Below, one piece after another: positions 11,944-64,000 of a stretch of 64,000 nt of DNA; within the stretch, counting starts at the first letter, position 1; each line of letters opens with the position of its first letter. The stretch comes from Bradyrhizobium guangdongense. GTDB lineage: Bacteria; Pseudomonadota; Alphaproteobacteria; Rhizobiales; Xanthobacteraceae. The notes under the pieces were generated by a model that searched no databases, was not told the DNA's origin, and saw only the letters and a program-made list of their open reading frames with translations. Where the stretch lies: contig NZ_CP030051.1 of the NCBI RefSeq assembly GCF_004114975.1, positions 3,410,001 to 3,474,000 of the forward strand. The letters run 5' to 3'. The position numbers were made by a program, and so were the translations under genes.

Positions 11944-12053
11944 CGCTCCGCGGGCAAGTTTCGCAATCTGAAGGATGGTTCGGTCGACGTCCAGCGTCCA
12001 AGGCCCCTCCCGAACGGGCTATCAGCAGGCTTGCCGCTGGCTAGTCCCTCGCG

Positions 12054-12700: not shown

Positions 12701-12782
12701 GCCAGCTGACCAATCCGGCCCATGCCAGTGAGCGCGGTGATCCGTCGCTAGTTACACCACGCAACGGGATCCCGGATCATGC

Positions 12783-14549: not shown

Positions 14550-14648
14550 TTCTTGCCCGGCTCGCTTCCCGCCCTAATCAGGAACGAACCCAAAGCACCT
14601 GGTCACATGAAGCCAGGCGGGAGAAGAACCTGATGATGTGAGGGGAGT

Positions 14649-14852
14649 TCACCTCGGCGGCTGCAATCCAGCTGAGCTCACCCATTCGTCCAAGTGAGCT
14701 GCCGTATCTGCCCTGCTGGCTCTTTTGAGCAGGTCTTCTCGGCGACGAGTTGGTGGCAGACTCAATGCTTCCCCGCGCAGGTCTCTTGCGAAAGTCGACA
14801 GGCGCTCCTTCAATGAGACAGTTTGTTTGACCCGGCGTCTTCGCTTGATCAT
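14649..14852 (-). CDS. Conserved hypothetical small protein
   Basis: A 67-residue charged protein: basic N-terminus MIKRRRRVKQ, an amphipathic helix LKERLSTFARDLR, then LLKRASRADTAAHLDEWVSS and a Gly-Leu-Gln-Pro-Pro end. I recognise this pattern (LPP...LLKxARxADTAxHLDEW) from short bradyrhizobial hypothetical proteins, but no function is known. No membrane segment or signal peptide. Confidence 0.65.
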   Translation of the reverse strand: MIKRRRRVKQTVSLKERLSTFARDLRGEALSLPPTRRREDLLKRASRADTAAHLDEWVSSAGLQPPR

Positions 14853-14950
14853 GCCCTTTGTCCCGCTAAAGAAAGATCGGTTGCTGGGATTCGGCAGTTC
14901 GCGCTTCTACATAAGCTAAGGGATTCACAAAAAGCCGGACTTCCAAGAAA

Positions 14951-15685
14951 TCAGAGGAGAACAAGTTTCTCCGGCGAATTCAGCACGTGAAGATAGGCGG
15001 GATTAAACTCCGCGAGCTCCTCAAGATCGGTACGGCGGAGGAGCTCTATGGTGTGCCCTCGCCAGTCAAGAAGGCCTTGCCGCCGCATCTCCTGCACCGT
15101 TCGATTCATATGCACTACCGAGATGCCGCAGGCTTGAGCGATGATCCCCTGAGTGAAGGGAGCAACAAAGCTCTTTTCCTTGCAAAGTCCAACACTCCCT
15201 AAACGAGCCGCGATTTCACACAGAAGATGGGCGACACGCCCCAGAGCTTCGCGCGAGCCAAGATTGTCTACCCACTCGCGATGTATTTCGGCCTGTATCA
15301 AGGTTTCCCGCCAAAACGCGTTGGTCAGCCCAGCGGAGCCGGCCAGAACATTCCTGAGACAGCTATGAGTGACGACGGCTATCGTGCTGTCACCGACGCT
15401 GCAAAGCTCGCGGTCCATCACAGGCATGTGCAGCGTATGCAGATCGGGCATATCGCCGGGCACATATATCGACGTGACCTGATTGCGGGATGCGACGATT
15501 CTTTGCCGGCAAAGAAAGCCGCTTAAGACTACACAACAACTGAGAGGGCGCTCTCCGGGCCTAGCCACGATGTCGCCCTTCGCAAAATTCTTGATGGTGT
15601 AGGGCATCCGTTCGAGCTTAGCTCGATCGTCGTGCGAGATACCCGATATCGCTTGGAGACGCGCAATGAGTTTTCGATGAGGCAA
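14951..15685 (-). CDS. Crp/Fnr-family transcriptional regulator
   Basis: A 244-residue regulator. It has an N-terminal cyclic-nucleotide-binding-like barrel (about 25-130, containing FAKGDIVARPGERPLSCCVV and VPGDMPDLHTL) and a C-terminal Crp-type winged helix (about 150-225, with FTQGIIAQACGISVVHMNRT as the HTH). It lacks the clustered cysteines of an FNR iron-sulfur sensor, so it belongs to the broad rhizobial Crp-like group whose effector is unknown. It stands alone. Confidence 0.88.
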   Translation of the reverse strand: MPHRKLIARLQAISGISHDDRAKLERMPYTIKNFAKGDIVARPGERPLSCCVVLSGFLCRQRIVASRNQVTSIYVPGDMPDLHTLHMPVMDRELCSVGDSTIAVVTHSCLRNVLAGSAGLTNAFWRETLIQAEIHREWVDNLGSREALGRVAHLLCEIAARLGSVGLCKEKSFVAPFTQGIIAQACGISVVHMNRTVQEMRRQGLLDWRGHTIELLRRTDLEELAEFNPAYLHVLNSPEKLVLL

Positions 15686-16064
15686 AAGCTTGCTCCCTAT
15701 ATTGAGGCGGGAGCGCTATCGGTCTCTCAGGCACCGACGCCTGGGCAGAGCCTCAGCCGGTGATGAAATAACAATAAACCTTTCGGTGAGTAGTTGCTAC
15801 TTTAATCGTCTCAGACGAGCACGCCACGCTGATCCCATAACGGCTTACCGGCCGGCGGCTACCGCATCGGTCAGACTCTGTCCTCAAGGTGCCGGATCGA
15901 GGTTTTCAGTTTTACCTGAAAAGCTGACGTTTTCTGAGGAGCATGGAAATTCGCCGACGGGCCGCGGAAACAGCGCCTGGTTGAGCGCGGTCGCATCGGC
16001 AATTCGGGTAATAGTGAGATGGCGGTGCCGCGTCGCCCTTTAATTCATGTGCCGCGGTTCCTAT
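15686..16064. other. Intergenic region
   Basis: About 380 nt between the Crp/Fnr gene and a small plus-strand gene. Open frames on both strands here look accidental: none has a domain or a good ribosome-binding site. A promoter for the Crp/Fnr gene presumably lies at the left edge. Confidence 0.4.
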
Positions 16065-49988: not shown

Positions 49989-50016
49989 TCAACGAGCTCA
50001 CGTTCCGGTCAACTGC

Positions 50017-50043
50017 AAAGCCCCGCGAAAGCGGGGCTTTTCT
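50017..50043 (+). terminator. Rho-independent terminator after the barrel gene
   Basis: A perfect stem AAGCCCCGC/GCGGGGCTT with a GAAA tetraloop followed by TTCTG, 29 nt after the stop codon of the outer-membrane protein gene. Confidence 0.85.
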
Positions 50044-50294
50044 GTGTGAGGTTCTCGCCGGCCGTGGTCCTCAGCCGCGCCGAGGGGGACGCGTATTTAC
50101 TCGATGCCAACGGGGTTAGTTCGGCGTGAAGGCAAATTCGTAAACCACACCCGACTCTCGCGAGGGCGAAGGAAATTGCCGGAGGTTTCGCCAGACCTGC
50201 AGAGTGCGTTTGTAAAGGGCGCAGATCGTCAGTGTTACAGAGTGAACCCGCCGTCGCTCGGCACTGCTCCCGTGGGGTTGGATGCTCGGGCGGC

Positions 50295-50594
50295 CTAAGG
50301 CCGTGCGAGCACGTCTGCTAAGGCCAGTGCGAACATTGCGACCAGGAAAACAAGTCCTGAAATTGCCGCGACCCGGATCAGCGGCTTCGCTGAGGCGAGC
50401 TCCATGAAGAGCAAGACCACGAGGGTCGATTTTGCTGCAGCAATGATGATGCCGCTGGCTGTCGTTACTCGCCCCATAGGAATGTAGGCCGCAAAGAGGC
50501 TGAGCAGGAGAAGCGCTAGAAGCGCGGCCCAAATCAGAAGATTCTTCGCCATCAGACGGCGGACAGCACCGCTCGATTCAGTTCGTTCGCTCAT
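50295..50594 (-). CDS. ctaF: Cytochrome c oxidase subunit IV (caa3-type)
   Basis: A 99-residue protein with three hydrophobic segments (LLIWAALLALLLLSLFAAYI, SGIIIAAAKSTLVVLLFMEL, VAAISGLVFLVAMFALALAD). This is the size and pattern of bacterial oxidase subunit IV; the segment with K-STLVVLLFMEL is characteristic. It overlaps the subunit III stop by 4 nt (ATGA) and is the last gene of the large operon. It helps stabilise the oxidase in the inner membrane. Confidence 0.88.
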   Translation of the reverse strand: MSERTESSGAVRRLMAKNLLIWAALLALLLLSLFAAYIPMGRVTTASGIIIAAAKSTLVVLLFMELASAKPLIRVAAISGLVFLVAMFALALADVLARP

Positions 50595-51235
50595 GATGCG
50601 CGGCCCGGCAGGTAAATCAGCGGGTATAGGAAGATCCAGACAATATCGACCAGATGCCAGTACAAAGCGGTGACCTCGATCTCCGGATTGTCATGCAAGG
50701 GCAGCTCGTGCCGGAGCAGCACCCACACAAGGCGGCCGACCAACGCGATGCCGATCGACAGGTGGATCGCGTGAACGGACGTGACCAGCCAGTAGAATCC
50801 GTAGAAAAGCTGGGCCCCCGCTTGCGGCAAGGCGAATCCGGCGCCCGGCACCAGGTGCTTGTCGATGTCCTCCCTATATTCGAAGCCCTTGATGACGATG
50901 AAGGCGATGCCGAGCAGCGCCGTGGCGATGAGGCCGGCAAGGACGAGCCGCCGCAGCCGTACCGGCGCTTCGGCGGCCTGCGCGGCGACTGCCATGGTCA
51001 GGCTGCTGGTCAGCAGCACCGCGGTATTGATGGTGCCGTACCAGATATTGGTTTCGCGCCCGGCGGCGGCGAACGCGCCCGGATGCTCGATCCGGCACAC
51101 CGTATAGGTCAGCATCAAGGCTCCGAAGAACAGCGTCTCGCTGGCTAGGAAGACCCAGATGCCGAACTTGCCGGCCTCGCGCTGCCGGCTGAAATCGAAC
51201 CAGGGTTCTCTCAGCAGTGCACTTTCGTCACTCAT
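50591..51235 (-). CDS. ctaE: Cytochrome c oxidase subunit III
   Basis: A 214-residue membrane protein with the COX3 pattern: GKFGIWVFLASETLFFGALM, later FYGFYWLVTSVHAIHLSIGI and VTALYWHLVDIVWIFLYPLI. The conserved acidic FLASE and the ALYWHLVDIVW motif identify the family. The start is ATG 51235, sharing 1 nt with the subunit I stop. A longer open frame through to 52702 is antisense-like read-through of the subunit I gene and is not real. Confidence 0.93.
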   Translation of the reverse strand: MSDESALLREPWFDFSRQREAGKFGIWVFLASETLFFGALMLTYTVCRIEHPGAFAAAGRETNIWYGTINTAVLLTSSLTMAVAAQAAEAPVRLRRLVLAGLIATALLGIAFIVIKGFEYREDIDKHLVPGAGFALPQAGAQLFYGFYWLVTSVHAIHLSIGIALVGRLVWVLLRHELPLHDNPEIEVTALYWHLVDIVWIFLYPLIYLPGRAS

Positions 51236-52905
51236 CAGATCTCTCTCGCATTTTGCATCTGGGGAGGGGCAGTCCCGGCCGACATGCCTTCCGCGTGGTA
51301 GTCGTAGGGTCCCCGATCGACGCGCGGCTGCCGGTCGAAGTTCTTCGGCGGCGGCGGCGAAGTCGTGGTCCACTCGAGGCCCGTCGCGCCCCAGGGGTTC
51401 CTGGCCGCCTTGCCGCCGTAGAAGAGCGACCATGTCAGGTAGCCGAGCGGCAGCAGATAGGCGATCGCGAGCACTGCCGCGCCGGCCGAGGACATCACGT
51501 TGTAGATCTGGAATTCCGCCGGATAGGTGTGATAGCGCCGGGGCATGCCGAGATAGCCCGCGACGAATTGCGGCAGAAAAGTCATGTTGAAACCGGCATA
51601 CATCAGGATAGCGGCGAATTTCGCCCAGCTCTCCGGATAGAGCCTGCCTGTCACCTTCGGCCACCAGAAGTGCAGGCCGGCGAAGAAGGCGGAGACGGAG
51701 CCGCCGACCATGATGTAGTGGAAATGCGCCACGACGAAATAGGTGTCGGTGACGTGGATGTCCACCGGGATCGAGGCGAGGAACAGGCCGGAGAGCCCGC
51801 CGGTCGTGAACAGCCCGACGAATCCGAGCGCATAGAGCATCGGGGATTCGAAGCTGATCTGCCCGCGGTACAGCGATGCCGTCCAGTTGAATACCTTGAT
51901 CGCCGAAGGCACCGCGATGATGAAGGACAGAAACGAGAACACCAGGCTGGCCAGCGCCGATTGTCCGGAGACGAACATGTGGTGGCCCCAGACGAAGAAC
52001 CCGATGCCGGCGATAGCCAGCATGGCGTAGACCATGAAGTCGTAGCCGAAGATCCGCCGCCGCGCGAAGCAGGGGATGATCTCGGACACCACGCCCATTG
52101 CGGGCAGCACCATGATGTAGACGGCCGGGTGCGAGTAGAACCAGAACAGGTGCTGGAACAAGATCGGATCGCCGCCACGTGCTGGATCGAAGATCGGCAG
52201 GCCGAACACGCGCTCGGTGATCACGAGCAGCAGCGAGATCGCGAGCACCGGCGTAGCGAGCACCATGATCAGCGACGTCGCGTAGATCGCCCAGACGAAC
52301 AACGGTAGCCGGAACCAGGTCATGCCGGGAGCGCGGAGCATGTGGGTGGTCGCGATGAAGTTCACGCCCGTTGCGATGCTGGCGAAGCCGACGATGAACA
52401 CGCCGGCCGCCGCCGCAAAGACGTGGGTGTTGGAGAACATCGACGAATAAGGCGTGTAGAACGTCCAGCCGGTGTCGACGCCGCCGGCGACGAGGGCGTA
52501 GACGGTGAATGCGCCGGCTGCGATGGTCAAATACCAGCTGAACAAATTGAGGCGCGGAAAGGCGACATCCGGCGCCCCGATCATCAGCGGCAGCAAGAAA
52601 TTGCCGAACGTGTTGGGGATCGACGGCACCAGGAAGAACCAGACCATGATGATCCCATGAAACGAGAACAGCTTGTTGTAGGTGTCCGAGTTCATCAGCC
52701 ATCCATTGGGCTGGAACAGTTCGAGCCGCACGGCCGTGATCGCGGCGCCGCCCAGGAAGAAGAACACCGTGATGGTCACCGCGTAGAGGATGGCGATGCG
52801 CTTGTGGTCGGTGGTGGCGAGCCAGGACCTCACCGTGGCGCCGTGGCGCAGATAATCCGGACGCGGCGGCAGAGGCAGCTCTCCGGCGAGCAGGGCATCA
52901 GTCAT
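51235..52905 (-). CDS. ctaD: Cytochrome c oxidase subunit I, A2-type (YSHP motif)
   Basis: A 556-residue heme-copper oxidase subunit with about 12 membrane helices. Heme and CuB ligands are present: GIIMVWFFLVPSIPNTFG for the low-spin heme region, FWFYSHPAVYIMVLP (CuB His), WGHHMFVSG (two CuB His) and DTYFVVAHFHYIMVGG (heme a3 and heme a His). In A1 oxidases the D-channel Glu lies in GHPEVY. Here it is YSHPAVY, the A2-type tyrosine-serine substitution, as in Thermus caa3. The gene overlaps subunit II by 8 nt. Confidence 0.95.
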   Translation of the reverse strand: MTDALLAGELPLPPRPDYLRHGATVRSWLATTDHKRIAILYAVTITVFFFLGGAAITAVRLELFQPNGWLMNSDTYNKLFSFHGIIMVWFFLVPSIPNTFGNFLLPLMIGAPDVAFPRLNLFSWYLTIAAGAFTVYALVAGGVDTGWTFYTPYSSMFSNTHVFAAAAGVFIVGFASIATGVNFIATTHMLRAPGMTWFRLPLFVWAIYATSLIMVLATPVLAISLLLVITERVFGLPIFDPARGGDPILFQHLFWFYSHPAVYIMVLPAMGVVSEIIPCFARRRIFGYDFMVYAMLAIAGIGFFVWGHHMFVSGQSALASLVFSFLSFIIAVPSAIKVFNWTASLYRGQISFESPMLYALGFVGLFTTGGLSGLFLASIPVDIHVTDTYFVVAHFHYIMVGGSVSAFFAGLHFWWPKVTGRLYPESWAKFAAILMYAGFNMTFLPQFVAGYLGMPRRYHTYPAEFQIYNVMSSAGAAVLAIAYLLPLGYLTWSLFYGGKAARNPWGATGLEWTTTSPPPPKNFDRQPRVDRGPYDYHAEGMSAGTAPPQMQNAREI

Positions 52906-53839
52906 GTGGCGTCTCCTCCCCGAGCGAGCGGATGTAGGCGGTCAGGCTCTGGATCTCGCCATCGTCGAGCAGCCCTTTGAAGCTCGGCATGATCGGTTCG
53001 AAGCCCGCGACGATGTCGCGCTTCGGCTGCAGGATGGAATCGCGGATGTAGGCATCGTCTGCCGTGACTGTGCGCCCATCCGCCAGTTGCACCGCGCGGC
53101 CATAAAGGCCGGCGAGGCGCGGTGCGTGGACGCTCGACGAGACCGCATGGCAGCCCGAGCAGCCCTGCGCCACGAACAGCTTGGCGCCCTCATGCGCGAG
53201 GTCGTCGCCTTCGGGTTGCCGGGTTAACCACTGGGCATAGTCGTCCTGGCGCATGACCACGACCGTGCCTCGCATCATCGAGTGATTGGTGCCGCAATAT
53301 TCGGCGCACAGCAGCGGAAAGGTGCCGCTCTTGCTGGCCTGAAACCAGATGTCCGTGTCGCGGCCGGGCACCACGTCCTTCTTGACCCGGAACGCCGGCA
53401 CGAAAAAGGAATGGATCACGTCCTGCGAACTCATCAGCAGATGGACCGGCCGATCCAGCGGAACGTGCAGCGCGTTGATCTCACGAGCACCGTTCGGATG
53501 CTGCGTCTTCCACATCCACTGCTTCGCGACGACGTGGATCTCCAGCGCTCCCGCTGGTACCGTCAAGCTGCTGAGATCGGCGGAAGACGCCCACCAGAAC
53601 AGGAAGGCGAAGGTGAGGAGCGTCGCGACGGTCCAGCCAATCTCGAATTCGCGGCTGAGGAATTCCGGCATCGGGCCGCGCTTGGCAGGCGATCCGCGCC
53701 GGTAGCGAACGGCGAATAGCAGGATCAGCCCGAACACCAGCACCACAGTGGCACCGGACAGCACCATCAGTAGCTCAAAGATGTGATCCACCGTGACGGC
53801 GTGGGTGCTGGCCTCCGGCAGAGTGAACAGCGAGTTCAT
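52898..53839 (-). CDS. ctaC: Cytochrome c oxidase subunit II with fused cytochrome c domain (caa3)
   Basis: A 313-residue membrane-anchored subunit. Two N-terminal helices precede a cupredoxin domain with all CuA ligands (VIHSFF, then CAEYCGTNHSMM: Cys, Glu, Cys, His, Met). A C-terminal class I cytochrome c domain follows, with CSGCH (near residue 232) and the axial Met region IMPSFKGLL. The fused heme makes it caa3-type, so it can accept electrons directly from an upstream complex. The ATG at 53839 is used; the upstream extension overlaps the SCO gene. Confidence 0.95.
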   Translation of the reverse strand: MNSLFTLPEASTHAVTVDHIFELLMVLSGATVVLVFGLILLFAVRYRRGSPAKRGPMPEFLSREFEIGWTVATLLTFAFLFWWASSADLSSLTVPAGALEIHVVAKQWMWKTQHPNGAREINALHVPLDRPVHLLMSSQDVIHSFFVPAFRVKKDVVPGRDTDIWFQASKSGTFPLLCAEYCGTNHSMMRGTVVVMRQDDYAQWLTRQPEGDDLAHEGAKLFVAQGCSGCHAVSSSVHAPRLAGLYGRAVQLADGRTVTADDAYIRDSILQPKRDIVAGFEPIMPSFKGLLDDGEIQSLTAYIRSLGEETPHD

Positions 53840-54609
53840 GCCGAAGCTCCGCGACGCCTGCTTCGCATCAACATGAGCCCAATCAGTCCCGCCATGACGA
53901 CGACCGTCCCGGCTCCGAAGATCTGAAGGACGGTCGTGATCCTGCTTGTATAGATGCCGTGCACCGCGTCGAAGCCGTAGCAAAGCAGCGCGATGCGTCC
54001 GGCAAGTCCGCCGTTGCGACCATTGCCGGCCTCCAGCAATGCAAGGCGCAGATCGCCGGGCTGGAGCGCCAGACTAGACAGCGCCCGGACGAGCCGCCCG
54101 TCCGGCGCGAGCGTGACGAACGCTGCCGGATGCGCGATGGCGTCGTCGTCGCCGTCGACCTCGGTATGATAGCCGATGGCGTCGAGCAGCGCGGCGATGG
54201 TCTCGCGCGATCCGGTCAGGACCGCTGTTCCCGCGTCCCCAATCTGCCCCTGTGTGAAGCGGCGTGCGTCATCGATGCCGTCGCGCGGGTCGATGCCGAC
54301 AATGACGAGGCTGTAATCCCGTCCCGGTGTGAGGCCGGTCTGACGCAAGGCTGAGCTTGCGATGGTCAGTGCCGGCCCGCAGATCTGCTGACAGGTGAAG
54401 TCCGCCGGGATCAGCAAGGTCGGACGTCCATTGATCGCCTCGCGCACGGATACCTGCCGGCCGTCGAGATCGGTGAACGTCAGGGAGAGCGGCACGTGCG
54501 CACCGGCGAGAGGGTCAAAGCCGACACGCCTGATCTGCTGCTCGGTCAAGCCGGCCCGTGCAAGGGAGGGCCACAGCGCAAGCATCAGGAGGAGGATGGC
54601 CCGCTTCAT
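53836..54609 (-). CDS. SCO1/SenC/PrrC-type copper chaperone
   Basis: A 257-residue protein with an N-terminal signal peptide (MKRAILLLMLALWPSLARAG), a thioredoxin-like SCO domain with the copper-binding CQQIC pair (Cys73, Cys77), and a C-terminal membrane helix (VLQIFGAGTVVVMAGLIGLM). SCO proteins deliver copper to the CuA site of subunit II. Location between the ACIII and oxidase genes fits this. Overlaps the subunit II start by 4 nt. Confidence 0.9.
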   Translation of the reverse strand: MKRAILLLMLALWPSLARAGLTEQQIRRVGFDPLAGAHVPLSLTFTDLDGRQVSVREAINGRPTLLIPADFTCQQICGPALTIASSALRQTGLTPGRDYSLVIVGIDPRDGIDDARRFTQGQIGDAGTAVLTGSRETIAALLDAIGYHTEVDGDDDAIAHPAAFVTLAPDGRLVRALSSLALQPGDLRLALLEAGNGRNGGLAGRIALLCYGFDAVHGIYTSRITTVLQIFGAGTVVVMAGLIGLMLMRSRRRGASA

Positions 54610-55010
54610 GGAGAGCCTCCGCTTGGAGCGGGAGTGGCCGCGGGCGGAGCCAGAATGGGATCATAGGCGTGTGCGCCGCGTTGCGCGACGAGCCGCATCG
54701 CCTCCACGATCGGGATGCGCGCGATGTCATGGTCGCGATCGATCCAGGCATAGCCGGAGAGCCGGGCTTGCTGCGCGGTGGTGAGCCGCGCGAGGTCGAC
54801 TTCAGGCGATGTCTGCAGCTCCGGCGAGGGGAACTGGCGTTTCACGCGCGGGCTGAAGGAGTCTGGCGCCTGTGAATGCATGAAGAGCAACAGTCCGGCG
54901 ATGGCTGCGGCGACGAACAGCAGGAAGCCGCCGACGACTGCGAGCACGGCGCGGTTATCGATGTCCGCGGGTTGCGGACGCGCCCGGTTGCCCATTTCCT
55001 CAGCCGGCAT
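54606..55010 (-). CDS. Small membrane-anchored protein of the ACIII/caa3 operon
   Basis: A 134-residue protein: one N-terminal membrane helix (VLAVVGGFLLFVAAAIAGLL) and a periplasmic tail with FPSPELQTSPEVDLARL, then YAWIDRDHDIARIPIVEAM. Similar proteins ('Y-W-DR-xGI-RIPI-x-AM') lie in ACIII/caa3 operons of other bacteria. It is in a similar position to ActG, but I cannot show homology. It overlaps ActF by 11 nt and SCO by 4 nt. Confidence 0.8.
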   Translation of the reverse strand: MPAEEMGNRARPQPADIDNRAVLAVVGGFLLFVAAAIAGLLLFMHSQAPDSFSPRVKRQFPSPELQTSPEVDLARLTTAQQARLSGYAWIDRDHDIARIPIVEAMRLVAQRGAHAYDPILAPPAATPAPSGGSP

Positions 55011-56070
55011 GGTGCGCCTCCGCGGAGGCAATGCCCCTGCCGAAGAGTACGGACGCAACGCTCAGGCAGACGAGCGAGCAAAGTCCGGTGAGCGCAACAG
55101 CAGAGGGCCGGACGAAGGCGGGGACGATCAACCACGCAAAATGCAGGCTGGTCCCGAGCAGCAGCAGAACACCGACCGCGCGCAACCCCGCGCGGCTGCG
55201 GCGCACGCGAGTGAGCAGGAGCATTGCGAAGGGCAAAACGGCTCCGAGCGCAAAGGTCGCAATCAGCAAGCCGGTCCAGGCTTCCGAGGCGCGCCTGAGG
55301 AACCACGCGGCCTTGTGAGGCAGATCCCCATACCAGGCGACGACGAACGTCATGTATTCGAGATAGACGACGCCCAGCAACGTTGCCATCAAGAGCATGC
55401 CGATATCGCCCCACGCGTCGCCCGCGACGTCCGAGGTGCCGAACACTGCTGCGACGCCCAGCGCCGCCAAGAATTGTTGTATGGTAATCATGGACGCGAA
55501 CGCGGTGGATACGTAATGGGGTTCGACCGAAAGGAACCAGTCGACCGCGACCATGCTGATCGTGAGACCGAAGAAGGCAAGGCCGAGCGCGGCCAGCAGC
55601 CGCCCGCCGAGACCCGACGCAAAGATCACAGCAAGCGCAGACCATCCGGCGAGGGCGACGGCCGCGCGCAGGATGAATGACGTCTGGCCCAGATACCAGA
55701 CTGCGACATCCGGCTTGATCTGGCCGGGATCCGCAGCCCAGGGATAGATGGATGGCAGGCCGGCGAGGACCGGGAGGCAGGCGATGGCGACGAGCGGCAT
55801 CATGGCGGCCAGCGCACGCAGTGTCGGTCCGGCGACGACGCCCCAACGTCCGCCGGTCAGGCGGTGGATGAGCAGCAATGTCATGCTTCCGATGGGGGCG
55901 CAGCTCCATATCGCGAACGCGACAAGCCAGCCTCGCAGCAGGGCTGGATAGGGACCCAGGCGTCCGGCAGCCAGTACCAGCGCGGCCGCGAGTGTCAGCA
56001 GGGAAACACCGACCGCAACGCCTGGCCTGCCGAATGCACCAAGGGTTTGGTGGCGCAGCGTGGCAATCAT
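55000..56070 (-). CDS. actF: Alternative complex III membrane subunit ActF (NrfD-like)
   Basis: A 356-residue integral membrane protein with about 10 helices, the second, smaller NrfD-like ACIII subunit. Recognisable segments: LLRGWLVAFAIWSCAPIGSM, SVEPHYVSTAFASMITIQQF and VVYLEYMTFVVAWYGDLPHK. It forms part of the quinol-binding membrane module. The ATG at 56070 overlaps the ActE stop by 4 nt and is preferred over upstream in-frame starts. Confidence 0.9.
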   Translation of the reverse strand: MIATLRHQTLGAFGRPGVAVGVSLLTLAAALVLAAGRLGPYPALLRGWLVAFAIWSCAPIGSMTLLLIHRLTGGRWGVVAGPTLRALAAMMPLVAIACLPVLAGLPSIYPWAADPGQIKPDVAVWYLGQTSFILRAAVALAGWSALAVIFASGLGGRLLAALGLAFFGLTISMVAVDWFLSVEPHYVSTAFASMITIQQFLAALGVAAVFGTSDVAGDAWGDIGMLLMATLLGVVYLEYMTFVVAWYGDLPHKAAWFLRRASEAWTGLLIATFALGAVLPFAMLLLTRVRRSRAGLRAVGVLLLLGTSLHFAWLIVPAFVRPSAVALTGLCSLVCLSVASVLFGRGIASAEAHHAG

Positions 56071-56597
56071 GGCAGCTTGCTCCTCAGCTGCGGCACGTCC
56101 GCCATGTCGGTGTGCTGCGATTGCTGGAGCGCGCGGATATAAGCGACGATGGCCCAACGGTCGCGCGGCTCGACCCGGGCCGCATAGGAATACATCGCGC
56201 CGTAGCCGTTGGTGATCACGTCGAAGAAGTGCCGTGCGTCGGCCGCACGAAGCCGGGCGGAATGGTAGGAGGGCGGGGCGGGAAAGCCGCGCTGCACGAT
56301 CATGCCGTCGCCATGCCCGGAGAGCCCATGACAGGGGGAGCAGTAGATGTCGTAACGCTCCTGGCCGCGCGACAGCAGCGCCATGTCGACGCCCGGCGGC
56401 GTCGACACCTGCTGCGTGCGCTCCAGATCACCCTGCGCGACGGTGCCTGTCGGCGGGGATTGGGCCTCGGTGCCGTCCCTGAACAGTGCGGCCTTCGAGA
56501 ACGTGCCGTAGCGATTCTGCTGGGACATGGAATGATCGCCGCAGCCTCCGAGCGCGGCTGATAGCATCATCAAACATGCCAGCCGCCGCATGGTCAT
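56067..56597 (-). CDS. actE: Alternative complex III monoheme cytochrome ActE (lipoprotein)
   Basis: A 176-residue protein. N-terminal lipoprotein signal with a lipobox ending LGGC (Cys19), then one cytochrome c domain with CSPCH (residues 86-90) and the axial region PPSYHSARL. It is the periplasmic, lipid-anchored electron exit of ACIII. Start ATG 56597 overlaps the ActD stop; an ATG six nt downstream is possible. Confidence 0.9.
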   Translation of the reverse strand: MTMRRLACLMMLSAALGGCGDHSMSQQNRYGTFSKAALFRDGTEAQSPPTGTVAQGDLERTQQVSTPPGVDMALLSRGQERYDIYCSPCHGLSGHGDGMIVQRGFPAPPSYHSARLRAADARHFFDVITNGYGAMYSYAARVEPRDRWAIVAYIRALQQSQHTDMADVPQLRSKLP

Positions 56598-57112
56598 GGC
56601 TCGCGAAGCTCCGTGACGGCAACGGCTCCTGCCTCGGTGAGCACCGTCCGCAAATCGGCTGTGTTGTCTCCCGACGCCGTCAGCAGAAAATAGCGATCCT
56701 GCGTGGCGCGCTCGAAGCCCGGAATGTCGAACAAGGCGTCGTGCAGCCGCGGCAGGCGGCACGACCGAAAAAAAGCGATCACGCCGCTGAGCGCAGCGGC
56801 AAAAATGCCGATTTCGAAGGGGACCAGCAGGAACACCTGCCAGGAATTGAGCGGCCGTCCGCCGCTGTCGATCGGATAGTCGATCACCGCGCTGTACCAT
56901 TGCAATGCGAACGCGAAGGCCGCCGTCGTGAGCCCGCCGACCAGCATCGCGACACGAATCCGCGAACGGTCCAGCCCGAGATGGTCAGCCAGGTCCTCGA
57001 TCGGATAGGGCGTGAAGGCCTCGAGGGCCGCATGCCCGGCGCCTCTCACGCGCTGCAGCGCCGCCTTCAGCGTTTCGCCATCCATGAACTCCGCCAGCAG
57101 CTTCTCTGTCAT
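56594..57112 (-). CDS. actD: Alternative complex III subunit ActD (DUF3341)
   Basis: A 172-residue protein of the DUF3341 type. A short cytoplasmic head (LLAEFMDGETLKAALQRVRG, FTPYPIEDLADHLGLDRSRI) is followed by two membrane helices and a cytoplasmic tail. The FTPYPIEDL motif is characteristic. It is a structural membrane subunit of ACIII. Overlaps ActC by 4 nt. Confidence 0.92.
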   Translation of the reverse strand: MTEKLLAEFMDGETLKAALQRVRGAGHAALEAFTPYPIEDLADHLGLDRSRIRVAMLVGGLTTAAFAFALQWYSAVIDYPIDSGGRPLNSWQVFLLVPFEIGIFAAALSGVIAFFRSCRLPRLHDALFDIPGFERATQDRYFLLTASGDNTADLRTVLTEAGAVAVTELREP

Positions 57113-58476
57113 GCGGCTTGCTCCTCATGGGCGAGTTGGCGCATGTCGAACATGGAGACGCTCGGCACCAGCCTCATGAACAGCAGGAACAAAAACGCGA
57201 AGAAACCGAGCGGCGCGACCAGGAAGCTCCAGTCCCAGAAGGTGAAGTGGAAGCTGCGCCAGAGCGAGGGCATGTAGCCGTGTGAGAGCGTGTTCCAGAC
57301 GATCAGAATGCGCTCGAGCCACATGCCGATGTTGATCGCGATGGCGACCGGTATCAGCACCAGCAGCGAACGTCGCGCAAACGGCCACCACAGGATCTGC
57401 GGGATGAGGCAGTTGCAGGCCAGCAAGGCCCAGTACAGTGGCGCGTATGTGCCGGTGAATTCGAAGCGCACTGCCTCCCGCTCGGCGTGCTCGCCGCCAT
57501 ACCAGCCCATGAACCATTCGGTGGCATAGGAGTAGAACATGACGATGGACGCCATCAGCAGGATGCGGGCCATTGCGTCGAAATGGCGCGGCGTGATGAT
57601 GGCCTGGAGGCTAAGACCCCACCGGATCGCGGCCGCGAGCACCACGACCATGGCGAAACCCGAATACATCGCGCCGACGACGAAGTAGGGCGGGAAGATG
57701 CTCTCCTGCCAGCCGGGCATGAGGCTGGCCGCGAAGTCGAGACCAACGATGGAATGCACGGAGCAGACGAGTGGGACGCCCAAGGCAGCCATCGTCGTAT
57801 GCAGCGTTTCCAGGCGAGACCATTCCCGCGCCGAGCCGCGCCATCCGACTGCAAAAGCGCCGTAGAGCAGCTGGCCGGCCCGATGGGGCGTGCGGTCACG
57901 CATGGTGGCGAGGTCAGGGATGAGACTGACGTACCAGAACAACAGCGAGAACAGCAGGTAGCTGATGATGGCCCAGAAGTCCCATACAAGGGCGCTGCGC
58001 CATTGCGGCCAGAGTGCCATGGTGTTCGGATAGGGCGCGAGCCAGTACGCGTAGATCGGCCGTCCGAGGTGGATGATCGGCATCAGCCCCGCGATCGCGA
58101 CGGCGAACAGCGTCATGGCTTCCGCGAAGCGGTTGATCGAGGCGCGCCATCTCTGCCGCGTCAGCAGCAACATCGCCGAAATCAGAGTGCCTGCATTACC
58201 GATGCCGATCCACCAGACGTAGTTCGCAATCGCGACACCCCATACGATGGTCGAGTTGATGCCCCAGATGCCGATGCCCTGATAGAAAAGCCAGATGATT
58301 GCTCCGAGCAGCCAGAGCACGAAGGGGAAGGTGATGAGGAGCGCGAACCACCAGCTTCTGCCGAAACCGGTGAAGAGCGGATCCGCGATCGCTTGCGTGA
58401 TGGCGACGTCACCTGCGCGCCCGGACGAGATCCAACGGTGTGCCGGAGGGTCCCGGGCCACGAGAACCTTACTCAT
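57109..58476 (-). CDS. actC: Alternative complex III membrane subunit ActC (NrfD-like)
   Basis: A 455-residue integral membrane protein with about 10 helices. Typical features are the N-terminal VWWIGIGNAGTLISAMLLLT and SIVGLDFAASLMPGWQESIF, characteristic of NrfD/PsrC-like ACIII subunits. It carries the proposed quinol-oxidising site next to ActB. Overlaps both neighbours by 4 nt. Confidence 0.93.
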   Translation of the reverse strand: MSKVLVARDPPAHRWISSGRAGDVAITQAIADPLFTGFGRSWWFALLITFPFVLWLLGAIIWLFYQGIGIWGINSTIVWGVAIANYVWWIGIGNAGTLISAMLLLTRQRWRASINRFAEAMTLFAVAIAGLMPIIHLGRPIYAYWLAPYPNTMALWPQWRSALVWDFWAIISYLLFSLLFWYVSLIPDLATMRDRTPHRAGQLLYGAFAVGWRGSAREWSRLETLHTTMAALGVPLVCSVHSIVGLDFAASLMPGWQESIFPPYFVVGAMYSGFAMVVVLAAAIRWGLSLQAIITPRHFDAMARILLMASIVMFYSYATEWFMGWYGGEHAEREAVRFEFTGTYAPLYWALLACNCLIPQILWWPFARRSLLVLIPVAIAINIGMWLERILIVWNTLSHGYMPSLWRSFHFTFWDWSFLVAPLGFFAFLFLLFMRLVPSVSMFDMRQLAHEEQAA

Positions 58477-61334
58477 GTCCGTTCCTCCGCGTCCGGCCCG
58501 GCCGGGTTGCGAACATCGGCCAGGTAGGTCGTCCGAGGGCGCGTGCCGAGATGGCCTAACAGGGCATAGTGGCGCGGATCGGCCTTGCGCGTGTTGACCT
58601 CCGCTTCAGGCTGGTTCATGTCCCCGAAACTGATGGCGCGAGTGGGGCAGGCATTCTGACATGCGGTCCGGACTTCATCGGGATCTATCGCACGGTTCTC
58701 GCGTTCCGCGGCCCGCCTGGCTGCGCTGATTCTTTGAACACAATAGGTGCATTTCTCCATCACCCCGCGCGCGCGAACGGTCACTTCCGGGTTCTTCTGT
58801 CCGCGATAGGAATCCGCGCCGAGGTTGCCGTATTCCTCGCCATCCGCGTAGCCGAAGAAATTGAACCGCCGCACCTTGTACGGGCAGTTCGCCTCGCAGA
58901 AGCGGGTCCCGATGCAGCGATTGTAGACCTGAGCATTCAGGCCTTCATGATCGTGGACGGACGCTGCAACCGGGCAGACCGGCTCGCACGGCGCATGCTC
59001 GCAATGCATGCAGGGGACCGGTTGAAAGCCGAGCTGCGGGTCGTCGGTGGCGCCGTGATCGTAAACGTCGACACGCATCCAGTGCATGTCCCGTCCCATT
59101 GCGACCTGCTCCGGTCCCACGACGGGAACGTTGTTCTCGGCCTGACAAGATACCACGCAGGCGTTGCAACCAATGCAAACCGACGTATCGATCACCATGG
59201 CCCAGGCATGCCCGTCGTCGGTCTTCGGGGGGCGAGGCATCAAGCTAGGTTGGTCGGGGGGCGTCGTCGAGGGCAGCGCGCGGCCAAGTTGATACGACGG
59301 ATATAATTGGCGGACGTCTTCTGGCGTTCGGACGATGTTCTGGGTCGTCAGTATCGGTTCTCGACGTCCCGTCCGCGTGATCGAAACCTGCGCAAGGCGC
59401 CAGGGGTTGTCCGAGGTTCGGAGAGCATAAGCATTGGCGCCGACGCCATTGCCGATTGCGCCGGCTTTTTGCCGGCCTCCGCCAAACGTAAGCGCACAGA
59501 CTCCGATCGCTGAACCGGGTTCGATCAGGACGGGGACTTCGATCGACCGGCCAACCGCGGCGATCGCCACGAGCTCGCCGGATTGGATGCCAAGCCGGCT
59601 TGCATCCTTCGGATGCAAAGCTAGCGCATTGCCCCAGACTTGTTTGCTCAGCGGTTTCGGACATTCCTGCAGCCAAGCGTTGTTGGCAAACGAGCCGTCC
59701 CACATGCAAGGGTCGGGACGAAGAACCAGGCTGAGACCGTTCTTCTTCTCCTGAGCTTCGGCGCCCGTACTCGAGGGGGAGACCGATACAGCAGGTTTCA
59801 CGGCAGGAGCGCCGGTTCCCGGAATGACGCCCTCTTGCAGCACCCGTTGCCACCACGCCTCGAAATCTTCCGGAGCCGCATCGCGCCAAGTCTGTCGAAC
59901 CAGCTCATAGGAGCTCGCGTCCTGTTCACCGGCCATCCAGGCCAGAACCTCGTGAATGCCGAAGCTGCTGTACAGAGGCTTGATCAAAGGTTGGACGATG
60001 CTCGCTGTCCCGTCGCTGGCCCGCAAATCTGACCACGCCTCGAGCTGATGATTCTGCGGCACATGCCAAGTCGCGAGAGCGGCGGTCTCGTCGACATACT
60101 CTCCCATATGCAGCCGAAACTGCGCCTTCTGCGCTCTCGCCTCGAATTGCAAATCGACCGGCGCGTCATAACCCGGGTTGGCGCCGATGATAAAAAGCTG
60201 ACGCACGCGCCCGCCCTCGAGATCATCGGCGAGCTGTTGAAGCGTTCCGGCCTGCCTGCCCGAGGGAGTGTGATCGATCGGATCGATGAGCCGAACGGGT
60301 GCATTCAGCTGGGCGTTTATCCAGTGCGCAATTGCGTGGACTTCCTTCGACATCCCAGGCCCTGCGACGACGAGCGCTTCGCTCTTGTGAGCATTCAGGT
60401 CCAGCAAGATGTTTCGGAGCAGCAGGCGCTCACGCTCAGGAAGCTCGGGCGCGCCAATCGGCGCGCCGAGTTCCCGTGCCAGGCTTGCGGCGAACTGCTC
60501 GATTGCTTCGGGGCGGAGAGCAAGGCGTTCGTCTGCCTTGGCTCCGGTCAACGAGAGCGCACTTTCGAGGCAATAGAGGCGGGAGAAGGCGTTGGCGTCG
60601 TTGCGGCGCATTGCGAAGCCGCGGCCAATTCGTATCTGGTCGGGCCCGTGCCCCAGGGGATCGGCATCGAGGGCGACGATCATCCGTGCTTGCGCGAAAT
60701 CGGCCAAGCTGCAAACGGCCTGACCAAAAGCGAGTTGCGCACCCTGACGCGCGTTCTCGTCGTCGGTCGGATCGTAGGCGTGCCAAGCCGCGGTCGGGAA
60801 CGCCTGAAGCAGACCATCGATTTGGCGTAGAAGAGTGGGGGAGGTGGTGCGGCAGGTCAACAGGCGCAGGCCATCCCCTTGACGACTGCGGGCCTCGGTC
60901 AGCTCTGAGGTAAGCACTCCAAGGAGCGCTTCGCGCGACGCTATGGCGCCCTTGTGCAGAATGGTACGCGAGCGGTCTGGATCATAGAGCGAGAGAACGG
61001 CGGCTTCGGCGAAAACATCGGTGGCTCCAAGGCTGCCCGGATGACGCGGGTTGCCTTCCACCTTGATCGGCCGGCCGTCTACCGAGGTCACGATCACGCC
61101 GCGGCCGATGCCGGCCAATCCCAGTGTCGTCGCGAACTTCAGCGCTTCGCCGGGAACGATCCGTTCCGGCATCCTGACATAGGGCAGGATTTGCTCGTCC
61201 GGTTTGCTGCAGGCCGCGAGGCCACTTGCCATGCCGGTCGCGAGCAGGCCGAGTGCCTGACGGCGGTTGAGCTTGCTGGGCCGAACCGGGTCGGGGCGCG
61301 TCGGCAATTCTTTCAGCGGTGGCATATGGTGCAA
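58473..61334 (-). CDS. actB: Alternative complex III large subunit ActB (molybdopterin-like + iron-sulfur fusion)
   Basis: A 953-residue exported protein. N-terminal twin-arginine-like signal (LNRRQALGLLATGMASGLAA). Residues about 60-680 form a molybdopterin-oxidoreductase-like fold that in ACIII carries no Mo cofactor. The C-terminal about 250 residues carry four Cys clusters: CIGCNACVVSC, CMHCEHAPCEPVCP, CIGTRFCEANCP (one Cys replaced by Thr, as in a 3Fe-4S site) and CTYCVQRI with CQNACP. It passes electrons from quinol to the hemes. The start may be the ATG at 61325; the frame overlaps actA by 22 nt. Confidence 0.95.
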   Translation of the reverse strand: MHHMPPLKELPTRPDPVRPSKLNRRQALGLLATGMASGLAACSKPDEQILPYVRMPERIVPGEALKFATTLGLAGIGRGVIVTSVDGRPIKVEGNPRHPGSLGATDVFAEAAVLSLYDPDRSRTILHKGAIASREALLGVLTSELTEARSRQGDGLRLLTCRTTSPTLLRQIDGLLQAFPTAAWHAYDPTDDENARQGAQLAFGQAVCSLADFAQARMIVALDADPLGHGPDQIRIGRGFAMRRNDANAFSRLYCLESALSLTGAKADERLALRPEAIEQFAASLARELGAPIGAPELPERERLLLRNILLDLNAHKSEALVVAGPGMSKEVHAIAHWINAQLNAPVRLIDPIDHTPSGRQAGTLQQLADDLEGGRVRQLFIIGANPGYDAPVDLQFEARAQKAQFRLHMGEYVDETAALATWHVPQNHQLEAWSDLRASDGTASIVQPLIKPLYSSFGIHEVLAWMAGEQDASSYELVRQTWRDAAPEDFEAWWQRVLQEGVIPGTGAPAVKPAVSVSPSSTGAEAQEKKNGLSLVLRPDPCMWDGSFANNAWLQECPKPLSKQVWGNALALHPKDASRLGIQSGELVAIAAVGRSIEVPVLIEPGSAIGVCALTFGGGRQKAGAIGNGVGANAYALRTSDNPWRLAQVSITRTGRREPILTTQNIVRTPEDVRQLYPSYQLGRALPSTTPPDQPSLMPRPPKTDDGHAWAMVIDTSVCIGCNACVVSCQAENNVPVVGPEQVAMGRDMHWMRVDVYDHGATDDPQLGFQPVPCMHCEHAPCEPVCPVAASVHDHEGLNAQVYNRCIGTRFCEANCPYKVRRFNFFGYADGEEYGNLGADSYRGQKNPEVTVRARGVMEKCTYCVQRISAARRAAERENRAIDPDEVRTACQNACPTRAISFGDMNQPEAEVNTRKADPRHYALLGHLGTRPRTTYLADVRNPAGPDAEERT

Positions 61335-61966
61335 TCCGTCAGATGACCGGTCTTGATGTGGTAAGTTGCGGCGAGCTTGGACCCCGCCTCGCTCTGGTTC
61401 TTCGGCGCTTGCCAGTTCGGATCGAAAACCGCCTCGGGAGGACGCAAGTGAGGCTCAGGGTTACGATGGCAGTCGAGGCACCATTGCATCGTAAGAGGAG
61501 CTGCTTGCCGCATCAGCCGCATCTGTCCGACGTCGCCATGACAGGTGGTGCATCCCACTCCTTTTGCGACGTGGACCGAATGATCAAAATAGACATAGTC
61601 GGGAAGCCGGTTGACGCGCGTCCAAGCCATCGGCTTGTTACCGGCAAGGCTCTCCCGTACCGGCGCCAGCATCTGCGCATTCGTCCAGATCTGCGAATGA
61701 CAGGTCATGCAGGTCTCGGTCGGAGGAATGCCGGCAAAGCGCGCCTTCTCCACGGAGGTGTGGCAATAGCGGCAATCGAGGCCGAGCCCGGAAACATGAT
61801 GCTCGTGGCTGAACGGCACCGGCTGATTCCGGGTGACGTTCTGGTTGGTGACGTAAGGAGACCGCATCACCTCATAGGAGAGCCCAACTGCAAGCACCGG
61901 TGCTGCTCCAATAGACGCCATGACCAAGGTCGCAATCGTGTTTGCGCCTGGACGAAAGAGCTGCAT
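61313..61966 (-). CDS. actA: Alternative complex III pentaheme cytochrome ActA
   Basis: A 217-residue protein with an N-terminal membrane anchor (ANTIATLVMASIGAAPVLAV) and five CxxCH motifs (CRYCH, CMTCH, CTTCH, CLDCH, CTICH). This is the expected heme number for ActA. It also has FSHEHH near the N-terminus, a typical axial ligand region. It starts 27 nt downstream of the molybdoenzyme gene, after a GGGGGCG box, so it likely shares a transcript. Confidence 0.95.
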   Translation of the reverse strand: MQLFRPGANTIATLVMASIGAAPVLAVGLSYEVMRSPYVTNQNVTRNQPVPFSHEHHVSGLGLDCRYCHTSVEKARFAGIPPTETCMTCHSQIWTNAQMLAPVRESLAGNKPMAWTRVNRLPDYVYFDHSVHVAKGVGCTTCHGDVGQMRLMRQAAPLTMQWCLDCHRNPEPHLRPPEAVFDPNWQAPKNQSEAGSKLAATYHIKTGHLTDCTICHR

Positions 61967-61993
61967 TGTTCGCCCCCAACCGCGCTAAGACGC

Positions 61994-64000
61994 TCACGCG
62001 CGAATTCGGACAGGAACTGATTTTGCGGCCGGCGTCTTCGAATGTATGTCGTGGTGCGACAGCGGGATCAGCGGGTTCATTTCCGGATAGTAGGCACCGA
62101 CGCAGCCGTCCGGCAGTCTGAACGGGGTCACCTTGAGCGGCCCGACCTCCCGCGCCACGCCATCCTCGGCGTCGCTGACCAGGAAGACCATTTGGCCCTC
62201 CTGGAGGCCGGCGCGCGCGATATCGTCTGGATTCATCAGCAGCACGTCCCTTGTGCCCGCAATGCCCCTCATCCGATCGCTGTAGCCGTAGATCGTCGTA
62301 TTGAACTGATCGTTGCTGCGCATGGTCAGCAATCGGTAGCGCCCGGGCGCATCCGGGAAGCCGGTCGAACTGAGCGTCTCGGGGACGGTAAACTCGGCCT
62401 TGCCGCTTTCCGTCTTCCAGATCCGTTCGCGGGCCGAATTGCCGCGATAGAAACCGCCGGGCGTGAACATCCGTGCGTTGAAGTCGTGGAATTCGTCTGG
62501 ATAAGTCTCTGCGATCTCGTTGCGGATCAGATCGTAGTTGCCGACCCATTCATCCCATTTGAGTTTCGGGTTGGGGGCCAGGATCGACTGGGCGAGGCCA
62601 GCGACGATCGCGACCTCGGATTTCAGGTGTTCGCTTGCTGGCTTGCGCAGCCCAATCGAGCCCTGGATGCAACTGAAAGTGTCTTCCATGGTCACGGCTT
62701 GCTGCCCGCTAGCTTGGATATCCTCCTCCGTCCGGCCGAGGCACGGCAAGAGATAGGCGGCCTTGCCGTGCACGAGATGGCTCCTGTTGAGCTTGGTGGC
62801 GATCTGAACCGTCAGCTCCAGCCCGTGCCAAGCCTCTTCCATCTTCGATCGTTCGGGGATGGCGCGCACGAAATTTCCACCCAATCCGACGAAGGCCCTG
62901 ACCTTGCCGGCGAGAACGCCTTCGCAAGTTTCGACGGTGTTCATGCCCTTCTCGCGCGGCGGCTCGAACCCGAACTGCTTGGCGTACTTGTCGAGAGGGA
63001 CGAGCTTGGGCTTTTCCGAGATGCCGACCGTGCGCTGACCCTGCACATTCGAATGCCCACGCACCGGCGAGATTCCCGTGCCGTCTCGGCCGATGTTTCC
63101 CTTCAGAAGCAGCATGTTGACGAGCATGGCCACGTTTTGGAATCCGTGCACGTGCTGGGTCAGTCCCATGCCATAGATCCCGATCACGCGGTCTGCCTCG
63201 ACATAGACCTGCGCGGCTCCCTCGATGACCGCTCGGCTGAGGCCAGAGGCGGCTTCGATGTCGCCCCAGGAAATCGCTCGGACCTTGGCTTCGAACTCTT
63301 CGAAGCCATGCGTGTGCTGTTCGACGAAGGGAGCATCGATGACACGTTTGCCCTGCTGCTTGGCCGCATCGTCAGCCGCAAACACATGCTTGCAGATTCC
63401 GACAATGACGGCGATGTCGCCGCCAACCTTCACCTGGTGGTACTGGCTGCTGATCTGCGTGCTTTTGCCTGTCAGCATCTCCGCCGGGTTCTGCGGATTG
63501 ATGAAGACCTCAAGGCCCTTTTCGCGCACGGGATTGAAAGTAATAATCTGAACGCCGCGCTTGGCCGCATCCTGGAGTGGATGCAGAAAGCGAGGGCTGT
63601 TCGATCCGGTATTCTGCCCAAAGAAGAACATCGCGTCGCAGTTGCTGAGATCGTCGAAGACGACGGTTCCGACGCCGGCGCCAATCAGCTTCTTCAGCGC
63701 CACCGACGTGGTTTCGTGGCACATGTTCGAACTGTCGGGCAGGTTGTTGTTGCCATAGACCCGCGCGAACAGGGCATAGAGGTAGGAGGTCTCGAGGCTG
63801 GCACGGCCCGACGAATAGAACACGACCGACTTGGGATCGAGCGCCTTGAGCTGCAAACCGATCGCCTGAAAAGCTTCATCCCAGGAGCAGGGCACATATT
63901 TATCTGTGGCACTGTCGTAGCGCAGCGGATGGGTCAGTCGACCCTGCTGCTCGAGGTCGTAATCCTTCCAGCAGAGCAACTCTGTCACTGTGTGTTCGGC
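61994..64000 (-). CDS. FdhF/YdeP-family molybdopterin oxidoreductase, 5' partial
   Basis: The frame runs off the right edge; about 669 residues are visible and roughly 100 N-terminal residues are missing. It matches the formate-dehydrogenase-alpha-like FdhF/YdeP family: LEQQGRLTHPLRYDSATDKY, PDSSNMCHETTSVALKKLIG (the Cys in NMCHE as the expected Mo ligand), FFFGQNTGSNSPRFLHPLQD, and a C-terminal cofactor domain with LLTMRSNDQFNTTIYGYSDR. Members may oxidise formate or act in acid/redox stress. Its position directly upstream of actA is unusual. Confidence 0.88.
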   Translation of the reverse strand, partial: AEHTVTELLCWKDYDLEQQGRLTHPLRYDSATDKYVPCSWDEAFQAIGLQLKALDPKSVVFYSSGRASLETSYLYALFARVYGNNNLPDSSNMCHETTSVALKKLIGAGVGTVVFDDLSNCDAMFFFGQNTGSNSPRFLHPLQDAAKRGVQIITFNPVREKGLEVFINPQNPAEMLTGKSTQISSQYHQVKVGGDIAVIVGICKHVFAADDAAKQQGKRVIDAPFVEQHTHGFEEFEAKVRAISWGDIEAASGLSRAVIEGAAQVYVEADRVIGIYGMGLTQHVHGFQNVAMLVNMLLLKGNIGRDGTGISPVRGHSNVQGQRTVGISEKPKLVPLDKYAKQFGFEPPREKGMNTVETCEGVLAGKVRAFVGLGGNFVRAIPERSKMEEAWHGLELTVQIATKLNRSHLVHGKAAYLLPCLGRTEEDIQASGQQAVTMEDTFSCIQGSIGLRKPASEHLKSEVAIVAGLAQSILAPNPKLKWDEWVGNYDLIRNEIAETYPDEFHDFNARMFTPGGFYRGNSARERIWKTESGKAEFTVPETLSSTGFPDAPGRYRLLTMRSNDQFNTTIYGYSDRMRGIAGTRDVLLMNPDDIARAGLQEGQMVFLVSDAEDGVAREVGPLKVTPFRLPDGCVGAYYPEMNPLIPLSHHDIHSKTPAAKSVPVRIRA

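Follow-up and report, generated by a model that had tools for sequence, protein, structure and literature searches.

Alternative complex III (ACIII) and a caa3 oxidase are encoded together in a 64,000-nucleotide stretch of the Bradyrhizobium guangdongense chromosome (contig NZ_CP030051.1, positions 3,410,001 to 3,474,000 of the forward strand; hereafter the window), immediately behind a gene for a molybdoenzyme of the FdhF/YdeP family (hereafter FdhF). In these respiratory families, electrons pass from quinol to ACIII, then to caa3, and finally to O2. The same genome contains one cytochrome c1 gene, so that a bc1 complex is probably present, and eight COX1-family genes, i.e. seven besides the coxA of the operon, in agreement with the original assumption of a host that otherwise uses bc1/aa3. 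Under what circumstances, then, might the ACIII branch be used, and why does a molybdoenzyme gene stand at its head? The comparisons below make it reasonably likely that the locus encodes a general-stress-controlled alternative respiratory chain (quinol–ACIII–caa3–O2), in one transcription unit headed by an interchangeable dehydrogenase gene.

The operon and the promoter motif at its head

Twelve genes, from actA (61966) to coxD (50295), lie on the minus strand in the order actABCDEF, small membrane protein, SCO, coxBACD (A2-type caa3). Neighbours overlap by 1–22 nt throughout. From actA to coxD the successive overlaps are 22 (or 13), 4, 4, 4, 4, 11, 4, 4, 8, 1 and 4 nt, the first depending on whether actB starts at TTG (61334) or at the alternative ATG (61325). 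A 27-nt gap separates the FdhF stop codon from the actA start. This compact arrangement had been predicted, and is borne out by the open reading frames (ORFs) and their family matches. The 5' part of the FdhF gene, the fdhD gene and the promoter motif were taken from the continuation of the same chromosome beyond the window. The features are as follows.

64331-64355, minus strand, just outside the window: EcfG-type promoter motif of FdhF
61994..64288, minus strand, cut by the window end at 64000: FdhF/YdeP-family molybdoenzyme (TIGR01701), 764 aa, 932.9 bits
61313..61966, minus strand: actA, ACIII pentaheme cytochrome c; five CXXCH motifs, Cytochrome_C7 and QrcA-like matches
58473..61334, minus strand: actB, fused molybdopterin-like and Fe-S subunit; best solved relatives are the B chains of 8k9e, 6lod, 6f0k and 6btm
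57109..58476, minus strand: actC, NrfD-type quinol-binding membrane subunit; 8k9e_C at 419 bits, then 6lod, 6btm and 6f0k
56594..57112, minus strand: actD; PF11821 (ActD), 163.5 bits
56067..56597, minus strand: actE, monoheme cytochrome c; PF13442 match, one CXXCH motif
55000..56070, minus strand: actF, putative second membrane subunit; assigned by position and by relatives at the equivalent place in most ACIII loci
54606..55010, minus strand: small protein with one likely transmembrane stretch (by eye); relatives between actF and SCO elsewhere
53836..54609, minus strand: SCO1/SenC copper chaperone; PF02630, 33.1 bits
52898..53839, minus strand: coxB/ctaC, CuA-like motif and fused cytochrome c (caa3); PF00116, PF00034, TIGR02866 at 165.4 bits
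51235..52905, minus strand: coxA/ctaD, A2-type; PF00115 at 483 bits, FWFYSHPAV
50591..51235, minus strand: coxC/ctaE; PF00510, start at 51235
50295..50594, minus strand: coxD/ctaF, caa3 subunit IV; TIGR02229, 45.3 bits
64556-65410, plus strand, just outside the window: fdhD, divergent from FdhF

The complex encoded by the act genes can be firmly identified as ACIII from the predicted products. The heme c motif counts of ActA and ActE are those expected, ActB has the fused molybdopterin-like and Fe-S architecture, ActC is NrfD-type, and ActD matches its own family. The 6btm chains matched by ActB and ActC are named Alternative Complex III subunit B and subunit C, respectively, and 8k9e, 6lod and 6f0k are ACIII structures as well. 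ActF matched neither a Pfam nor an NCBIfam family, and was named by its place and its relatives. CoxB combines the CuA-like motif with a CXXCH motif, and CoxA contains FWFYSHPAV, with the YSHPxV signature of subunit I of A2-type oxidases, which together identify an A2-type caa3. The small protein at 54606-55010 had no Pfam, NCBIfam or PDB match; its relatives occupy the interval from actF to SCO in the ACIII-caa3 clusters of several other phyla as well as here.

The same gene content and order, actABCDEF-SCO-coxBACD, is found in the ACIII-caa3 clusters of Rhodothermus marinus and Flavobacterium johnsoniae (COX operon type a-I), and ACIII genes joined to a COX operon have already been described for this type (PMC4013037; published work is cited here from excerpts of the papers). 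The present locus differs in that FdhF leads and an EcfG-type promoter motif heads the operon, neither of which appears in the excerpts compared.

The motif at 64331-64355, located 42 nt before FdhF, reads GGAAC-N16-CGTT and is identical to a published consensus for the sigma factor EcfG (PMC7083833). Other excerpts give the consensus as GAAC-N16,17-C/GGTT (PMC4814048) or GGAAC-N17-20-GTT (PMC6599016), and state that EcfG is confined to Alphaproteobacteria (PMC3892343). PhyR is encoded in this genome at C1:6820943-6821767, with a sigma-like gene beside it. The locus therefore resembles the PhyR-NepR-EcfG general stress regulon in its promoter consensus and in the presence of PhyR and a nearby sigma-like gene, but membership of ACIII or caa3 in that regulon is not mentioned in the excerpts compared.

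The operon could be interrupted by a terminator or promoter between FdhF and actA, which would have spoken against the predicted module. Terminator-like sites numbered 8 in 50000-64000, where 8.4 were expected, and none lay between the two genes; no sigma-70-like promoters were found in the same interval (2.3 expected by chance). An EcfG-type motif within 300 nt before actA was likewise absent from this operon and its six counterparts of the same layout (0/7), described next.

Conservation of the EcfG-type motif

Relatives were collected from a sample of 391 genomes of the family, searched for ActD and for TIGR01701 at E 1e-150, and loci were annotated in two rounds (20, then 26 more). Seven genomes, including this one, share the layout FdhF-actABCDEF-hyp-SCO-coxBACD (type 1, where hyp is the small protein), with FdhF proteins that are 89-95% identical and an FdhF-actA junction of 27-34 nt in all seven. 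A divergent fdhD is present in six of these loci, and absent from the fetched stretch of the seventh (L046).

Three forms of the motif were scored: strict (GGAAC-N16/17-CGTT), NGTT, and wider (GGAAC-N16/17-N[GA]TT). The strict form precedes FdhF in 7/7 type-1 operons, at a nearly fixed distance of -127 to -133 relative to the GGWG codon, so that each carries at its head the conserved GGAAC-N16/17-C/GGTT expected of EcfG regulon members. Of 55 FdhF rows, 51 could be anchored; 14 showed the strict motif and 27 the NGTT form, against 0 for the reversed control. The wider motif was found before 33/37 FdhF rows of one clade (32/35 without two re-fetched duplicates), compared with 2/22 other FdhF/YdeP rows. 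Two of the clade rows, L182 and L183, are absent from the FdhF tree and were placed by 77-80% identity. One of the two exceptions, L156, is sister to the clade; the other, L171, belongs to the opposite half of the tree. The motif largely sets this stress clade apart from other members of the family.

The motif is also found before ACIII and caa3 genes that FdhF does not precede. In the type-2 layout, actABCDEF is divergent from coxBAC and FdhF lies nearby. Here the wider motif was present before 13/13 actA and 13/13 coxB genes, counts that are descriptive, the motif having been widened after the type-2 sequences were seen. Alphaproteobacterial actA genes without FdhF directly upstream had it in 23/32 fetched cases (scrambled controls, 0 and 1), compared with 2/58 actA genes outside Alphaproteobacteria. 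The NGTT form, scored before the widening, preceded 9/39 alphaproteobacterial actA genes and 1/59 others; the 39 include the seven type-1 loci, whose promoter precedes FdhF. For other genes of the same loci, the wider motif was present in 49/435, against 10/435 and 1/435 for two scrambled controls. FNR/FixK-like anaerobic control of the type-2 actA and coxB genes was considered and rejected, since no TTG-N8-CAA was found within 330 nt before actA in 11/11 loci.

Sister operons without FdhF occur in the type-1 layout (L047, L048, L049, L052, L061, L195 and L196) and in the type-2 layout (L060). The motif stands directly before actA in L047, L048, L052, L195 and L196. In L049 (genome G291), a trio of genes for a GMC oxidoreductase, a gluconate-2-dehydrogenase subunit 3 and a cytochrome c (11514-15992) occupies the place of FdhF at the head of the ACIII-caa3 operon; it ends about 40 nt before actA and is preceded by a strict EcfG-type motif. 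The family names of the trio were taken from relatives in L053 and L057.

Recurrence of the FdhF-ACIII pairing

The original prediction called for conserved co-occurrence of FdhF and ACIII in relatives, and this was found. In the family sample, ActD was detected in 43/391 genomes (44 places), FdhF in 137/391, and both in 20/391, with every FdhF place of these 20 covered. In 15 of the 20, the two lie within 15 kb of one another, where the estimated chance of lying at most 15 kb from a given point in an 8-Mb genome is about 0.4%. The remaining five comprise two pairs 22 and 31 kb apart and three on different contigs (G004, G247 and G369). Besides the seven type-1 operons, FdhF is located within 15 kb of ACIII in other layouts in 8 further genomes. 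The FdhF of type-2 loci (L053-L058, L141 and L142) is about 60% identical, and fdhD lies beside it in all but L142, L056 having a fragment only.

In a wider survey of the best 80 of 587 confirmed ACIII loci, drawn from many phyla and with flanks of at most 10 kb on contigs that often ended early, FdhF was present in one of the 80 named loci. This was Microvirga sp. KLBC 81 (L134), with FdhF-FdhD-actABCDEF in a row; two other Microvirga loci (L137 and L140) were without FdhF. No FdhF beside ACIII was found outside Hyphomicrobiales in these fetched loci. Across the class sample ACIII is rare, ActD being detected in 5/385 genomes, this one included. None of the four ACIII genomes outside the family (0/4) had FdhF nearby, and three of them carry FdhF elsewhere, in two cases on a different contig and in one at a distance of 1.2 Mb.

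On a tree of 55 FdhF rows with known genomic context, the ACIII-linked FdhF copies require 6 state changes, a number as low as this being reached in 0/500 shuffles. The linkage has thus been gained and/or lost repeatedly, and with 6 label changes the idea that every ACIII-linked FdhF goes back to one origin was rejected. We conclude that the pairing of FdhF with ACIII is confirmed as real and recurrent.

The role of FdhF, competing explanations and neighbouring genes

FdhF scores 932.9 bits against a TIGR01701 cut-off of 582.15, and is the sole match above the cut-off in the genome. The closest protein found, at 97% identity, comes from B. guangdongense. In an alignment with Escherichia coli formate dehydrogenase H, its Cys190, His191 and Arg410 correspond to U140, H141 and R333, respectively. 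These three residues are invariant in 63/63 aligned family rows, including E. coli YdeP. Formate chemistry is therefore plausible for FdhF, yet not specified by these residues, because they also occur in YdeP, an enzyme linked to acid stress (PMC10308882). The excerpts of the same paper report a part in formate oxidation for the relative Fdh4A of Methylobacterium extorquens, and formate induction for two relatives of Pseudomonas putida, of which PP_4596 has no identified partner subunit. The likeness of FdhF to Fdh4A, PP_0256 and PP_4596 was drawn from these published descriptions. As with PP_0256 (PMC10308882), fdhD adjoins FdhF here.

With E. coli YdeP, FdhF shares TIGR01701 membership and the formate dehydrogenase active-site residues, but YdeP branches outside the FdhF clade. 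The clade differs from other FdhF/YdeP proteins in its EcfG-type promoters, in extra conserved cysteines, and, in several lineages, in having ACIII or an oxidase as a neighbour. The cysteines are Cys455 (41/41 clade rows vs 1/22 others), Cys540 (38/41 vs 0/22) and Cys299 (35/41 vs 2/22).

No signal sequence was visible by eye at the start of FdhF, while ActB begins with a twin-arginine (Tat-like) stretch, also seen by eye. FdhF should accordingly be cytosolic and ActB periplasmic, and contact between the two is not expected. Nor were genes for beta/gamma partner subunits present among the ORFs scanned in or next to the operon (upstream, ORFs of at least 120 aa), so that the partner electron-transfer subunits of a respiratory formate dehydrogenase complex are not encoded alongside.

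FdhF also occurs apart from ACIII. Its context was read in 12 genomes without detected ActD (L152, L154, L157, L158, L160, L182-L185 and L189-L191). In four of them (L154, L157, L184 and L190), an A1-type (FFGHPEV) oxidase is located 3-5 kb from an FdhF that belongs to this stress clade, with CtaG called beside the oxidase in all but L184. In two others (L182 and L183), glycogen-synthesis-like genes lie beside FdhF. FdhF is thus a stress-clade enzyme that is often, but not always, near a terminal oxidase.

Taken together, these features suggest the following sequence of events. Under stress, PhyR would release EcfG, and RNA polymerase would start at GGAAC-N16-CGTT (64331-64355). From the conserved motif and the conserved tight operon, we infer co-transcription and EcfG control, such that the FdhF, ACIII and caa3 genes would be read together. 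The cell would thereby gain a second chain, independent of bc1, that runs from quinol through ACIII and caa3 to O2. The dehydrogenase at the head (FdhF here, a GMC/gluconate-dehydrogenase-like enzyme in one relative, and both near ACIII in others) would supply or consume reductant during the same stress. Most likely, FdhF would oxidize formate in the cytoplasm and reach the chain indirectly, through some acceptor and the quinone pool, which is the weakest step. Direct electron transfer from formate to ACIII is possible, and is the less supported part. Whether ACIII-caa3 in Bradyrhizobium and other Hyphomicrobiales is a stress-only, bc1-independent respiratory arm of the EcfG response, into which exchangeable dehydrogenases (FdhF or GMC/gluconate-type) have been recruited repeatedly, at the operon head or beside it, we regard as evenly balanced.

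Several observations weigh against a stress-controlled chain of this kind. Across the genome, the strict 6+4-base motif shows no real excess (45 matches vs 38 for the reversed motif), so that a single match means little and conservation carries the argument. The seven type-1 operons belong to one lineage of one genus and amount to a single event. Widening of the motif came after the fact, as noted above for type 2, and the -10 elements of the type-2 actA and coxB genes are mostly GATT/CATT, off the best consensus. No motif was found in 9/32 alphaproteobacterial actA genes without FdhF upstream, including L061, the closest FdhF-less relative of the operon among the best 80 of 587 ACIII loci. 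L171, outside the FdhF clade, shows the strict motif. Catalytic residues shared with acid-stress-linked YdeP are no proof of formate as the substrate.

The original prediction offered two roles, with FdhF feeding electrons into this branch or the whole forming a stress-induced module. Promoter motif conservation strongly supports the second, while the feeding of electrons is weakly supported. Its fullest form, a dedicated formate-to-oxygen chain in which electrons from formate go by way of FdhF to ACIII and caa3 in particular, would account for the 27-34 nt junction kept in seven genomes, the proximity in 15/20 genomes with both, the Microvirga row and the active-site residues of FdhF. We nevertheless consider it improbable. 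FdhF has neither signal peptide (by eye) nor partner gene and would sit on the membrane side opposite ActB; FdhF-less ACIII operons and ACIII-less FdhF copies, the latter in some cases beside glycogen genes or an A1-type oxidase, are common; by presence or absence the two genes are weakly associated, with FdhF in 20/43 ACIII genomes and in 117/348 without ACIII; and none of the four ACIII genomes elsewhere in the class has FdhF nearby, though three carry one.

Somewhat less unlikely is that FdhF and ACIII-caa3 are neighbours only as EcfG regulon genes gathered in islands, without a biochemical link. The excess of the motif before neighbouring genes (49/435 vs 10/435 and 1/435), the variable contents of the loci (TPP enzyme, Crp, DUF4396, isochorismatase and DJ-1/PfpI) and the 6 label changes, which show that the linked FdhFs are not one clade, would all fit. 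Type 1, however, forms one tight operon led by one such motif, and the different dehydrogenase heading L049 looks like selection for a set of dehydrogenase, ACIII and oxidase. The least likely of these alternatives is that another extracytoplasmic function (ECF) sigma factor reads the GGAAC promoters and the module answers a narrower signal. The type-2 -10 elements (GATT/CATT) depart from the EcfG consensus, and the excerpts of PMC3420878 give 17 as the number of putative ECF sigma factors in Bradyrhizobium japonicum, but the type-1 promoters match the EcfG consensus exactly, and the B. japonicum EcfF motif given there, GTAAC(g,a)-N14-15-(t,c)CG(t,a), does not fit. We therefore retain the stress-controlled chain with an interchangeable dehydrogenase, apparently induced by general stress and not by formate, as the preferred reading.

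If correct, this reading would account for the retention of the rare ACIII by bacteria that already have bc1 and several further oxidases. A conserved general-stress motif before FdhF, ACIII and caa3 in several layouts offers a directly testable answer, with ACIII as a stress chain. The little-understood FdhF/YdeP family would likewise gain a common theme, from acid stress in E. coli to formate in Methylobacterium and Pseudomonas. What appears to be new is the combination of known parts, FdhF in the lead and an EcfG-type promoter on an ACIII-caa3 operon. No paper joining 'alternative complex III' with 'YdeP' was found in the open-licence PubMed Central (PMC) literature, and among the papers listed there nothing nearer to the FdhF-ACIII-EcfG combination appeared in titles and the beginnings of abstracts.

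About 2 kb past fdhD, at 67638-71919 on the minus strand (L002:4638-8919), lie genes for a response regulator and for a hybrid histidine kinase of 1122 aa. No relative of this pair was present in the other type-1 flanks, which reach only ~2.4-4.6 kb past fdhD. The GMC/gluconate-2-dehydrogenase subunit 3/cytochrome c trio is also found near FdhF in L053, L057 and L141. Genes of 409 and 592 aa in the type-2 loci L053 and L057 were considered as formate-making oxalate enzymes; this was rejected for L053, where they encode a cytochrome c and a GMC oxidoreductase, and a gluconate-2-dehydrogenase subunit 3 gene adjoins them in both loci. Formation of formate from oxalyl-CoA by the thiamine pyrophosphate (TPP) enzyme near fdhD was also rejected, the enzyme being PRK08273, with pyruvate oxidase next closest. 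The PRK08273 TPP enzyme, Crp-type regulators and DUF4396 proteins recur near fdhF/fdhD or ACIII (L041, L045, L055, L190 and others), which suggests a larger stress island.

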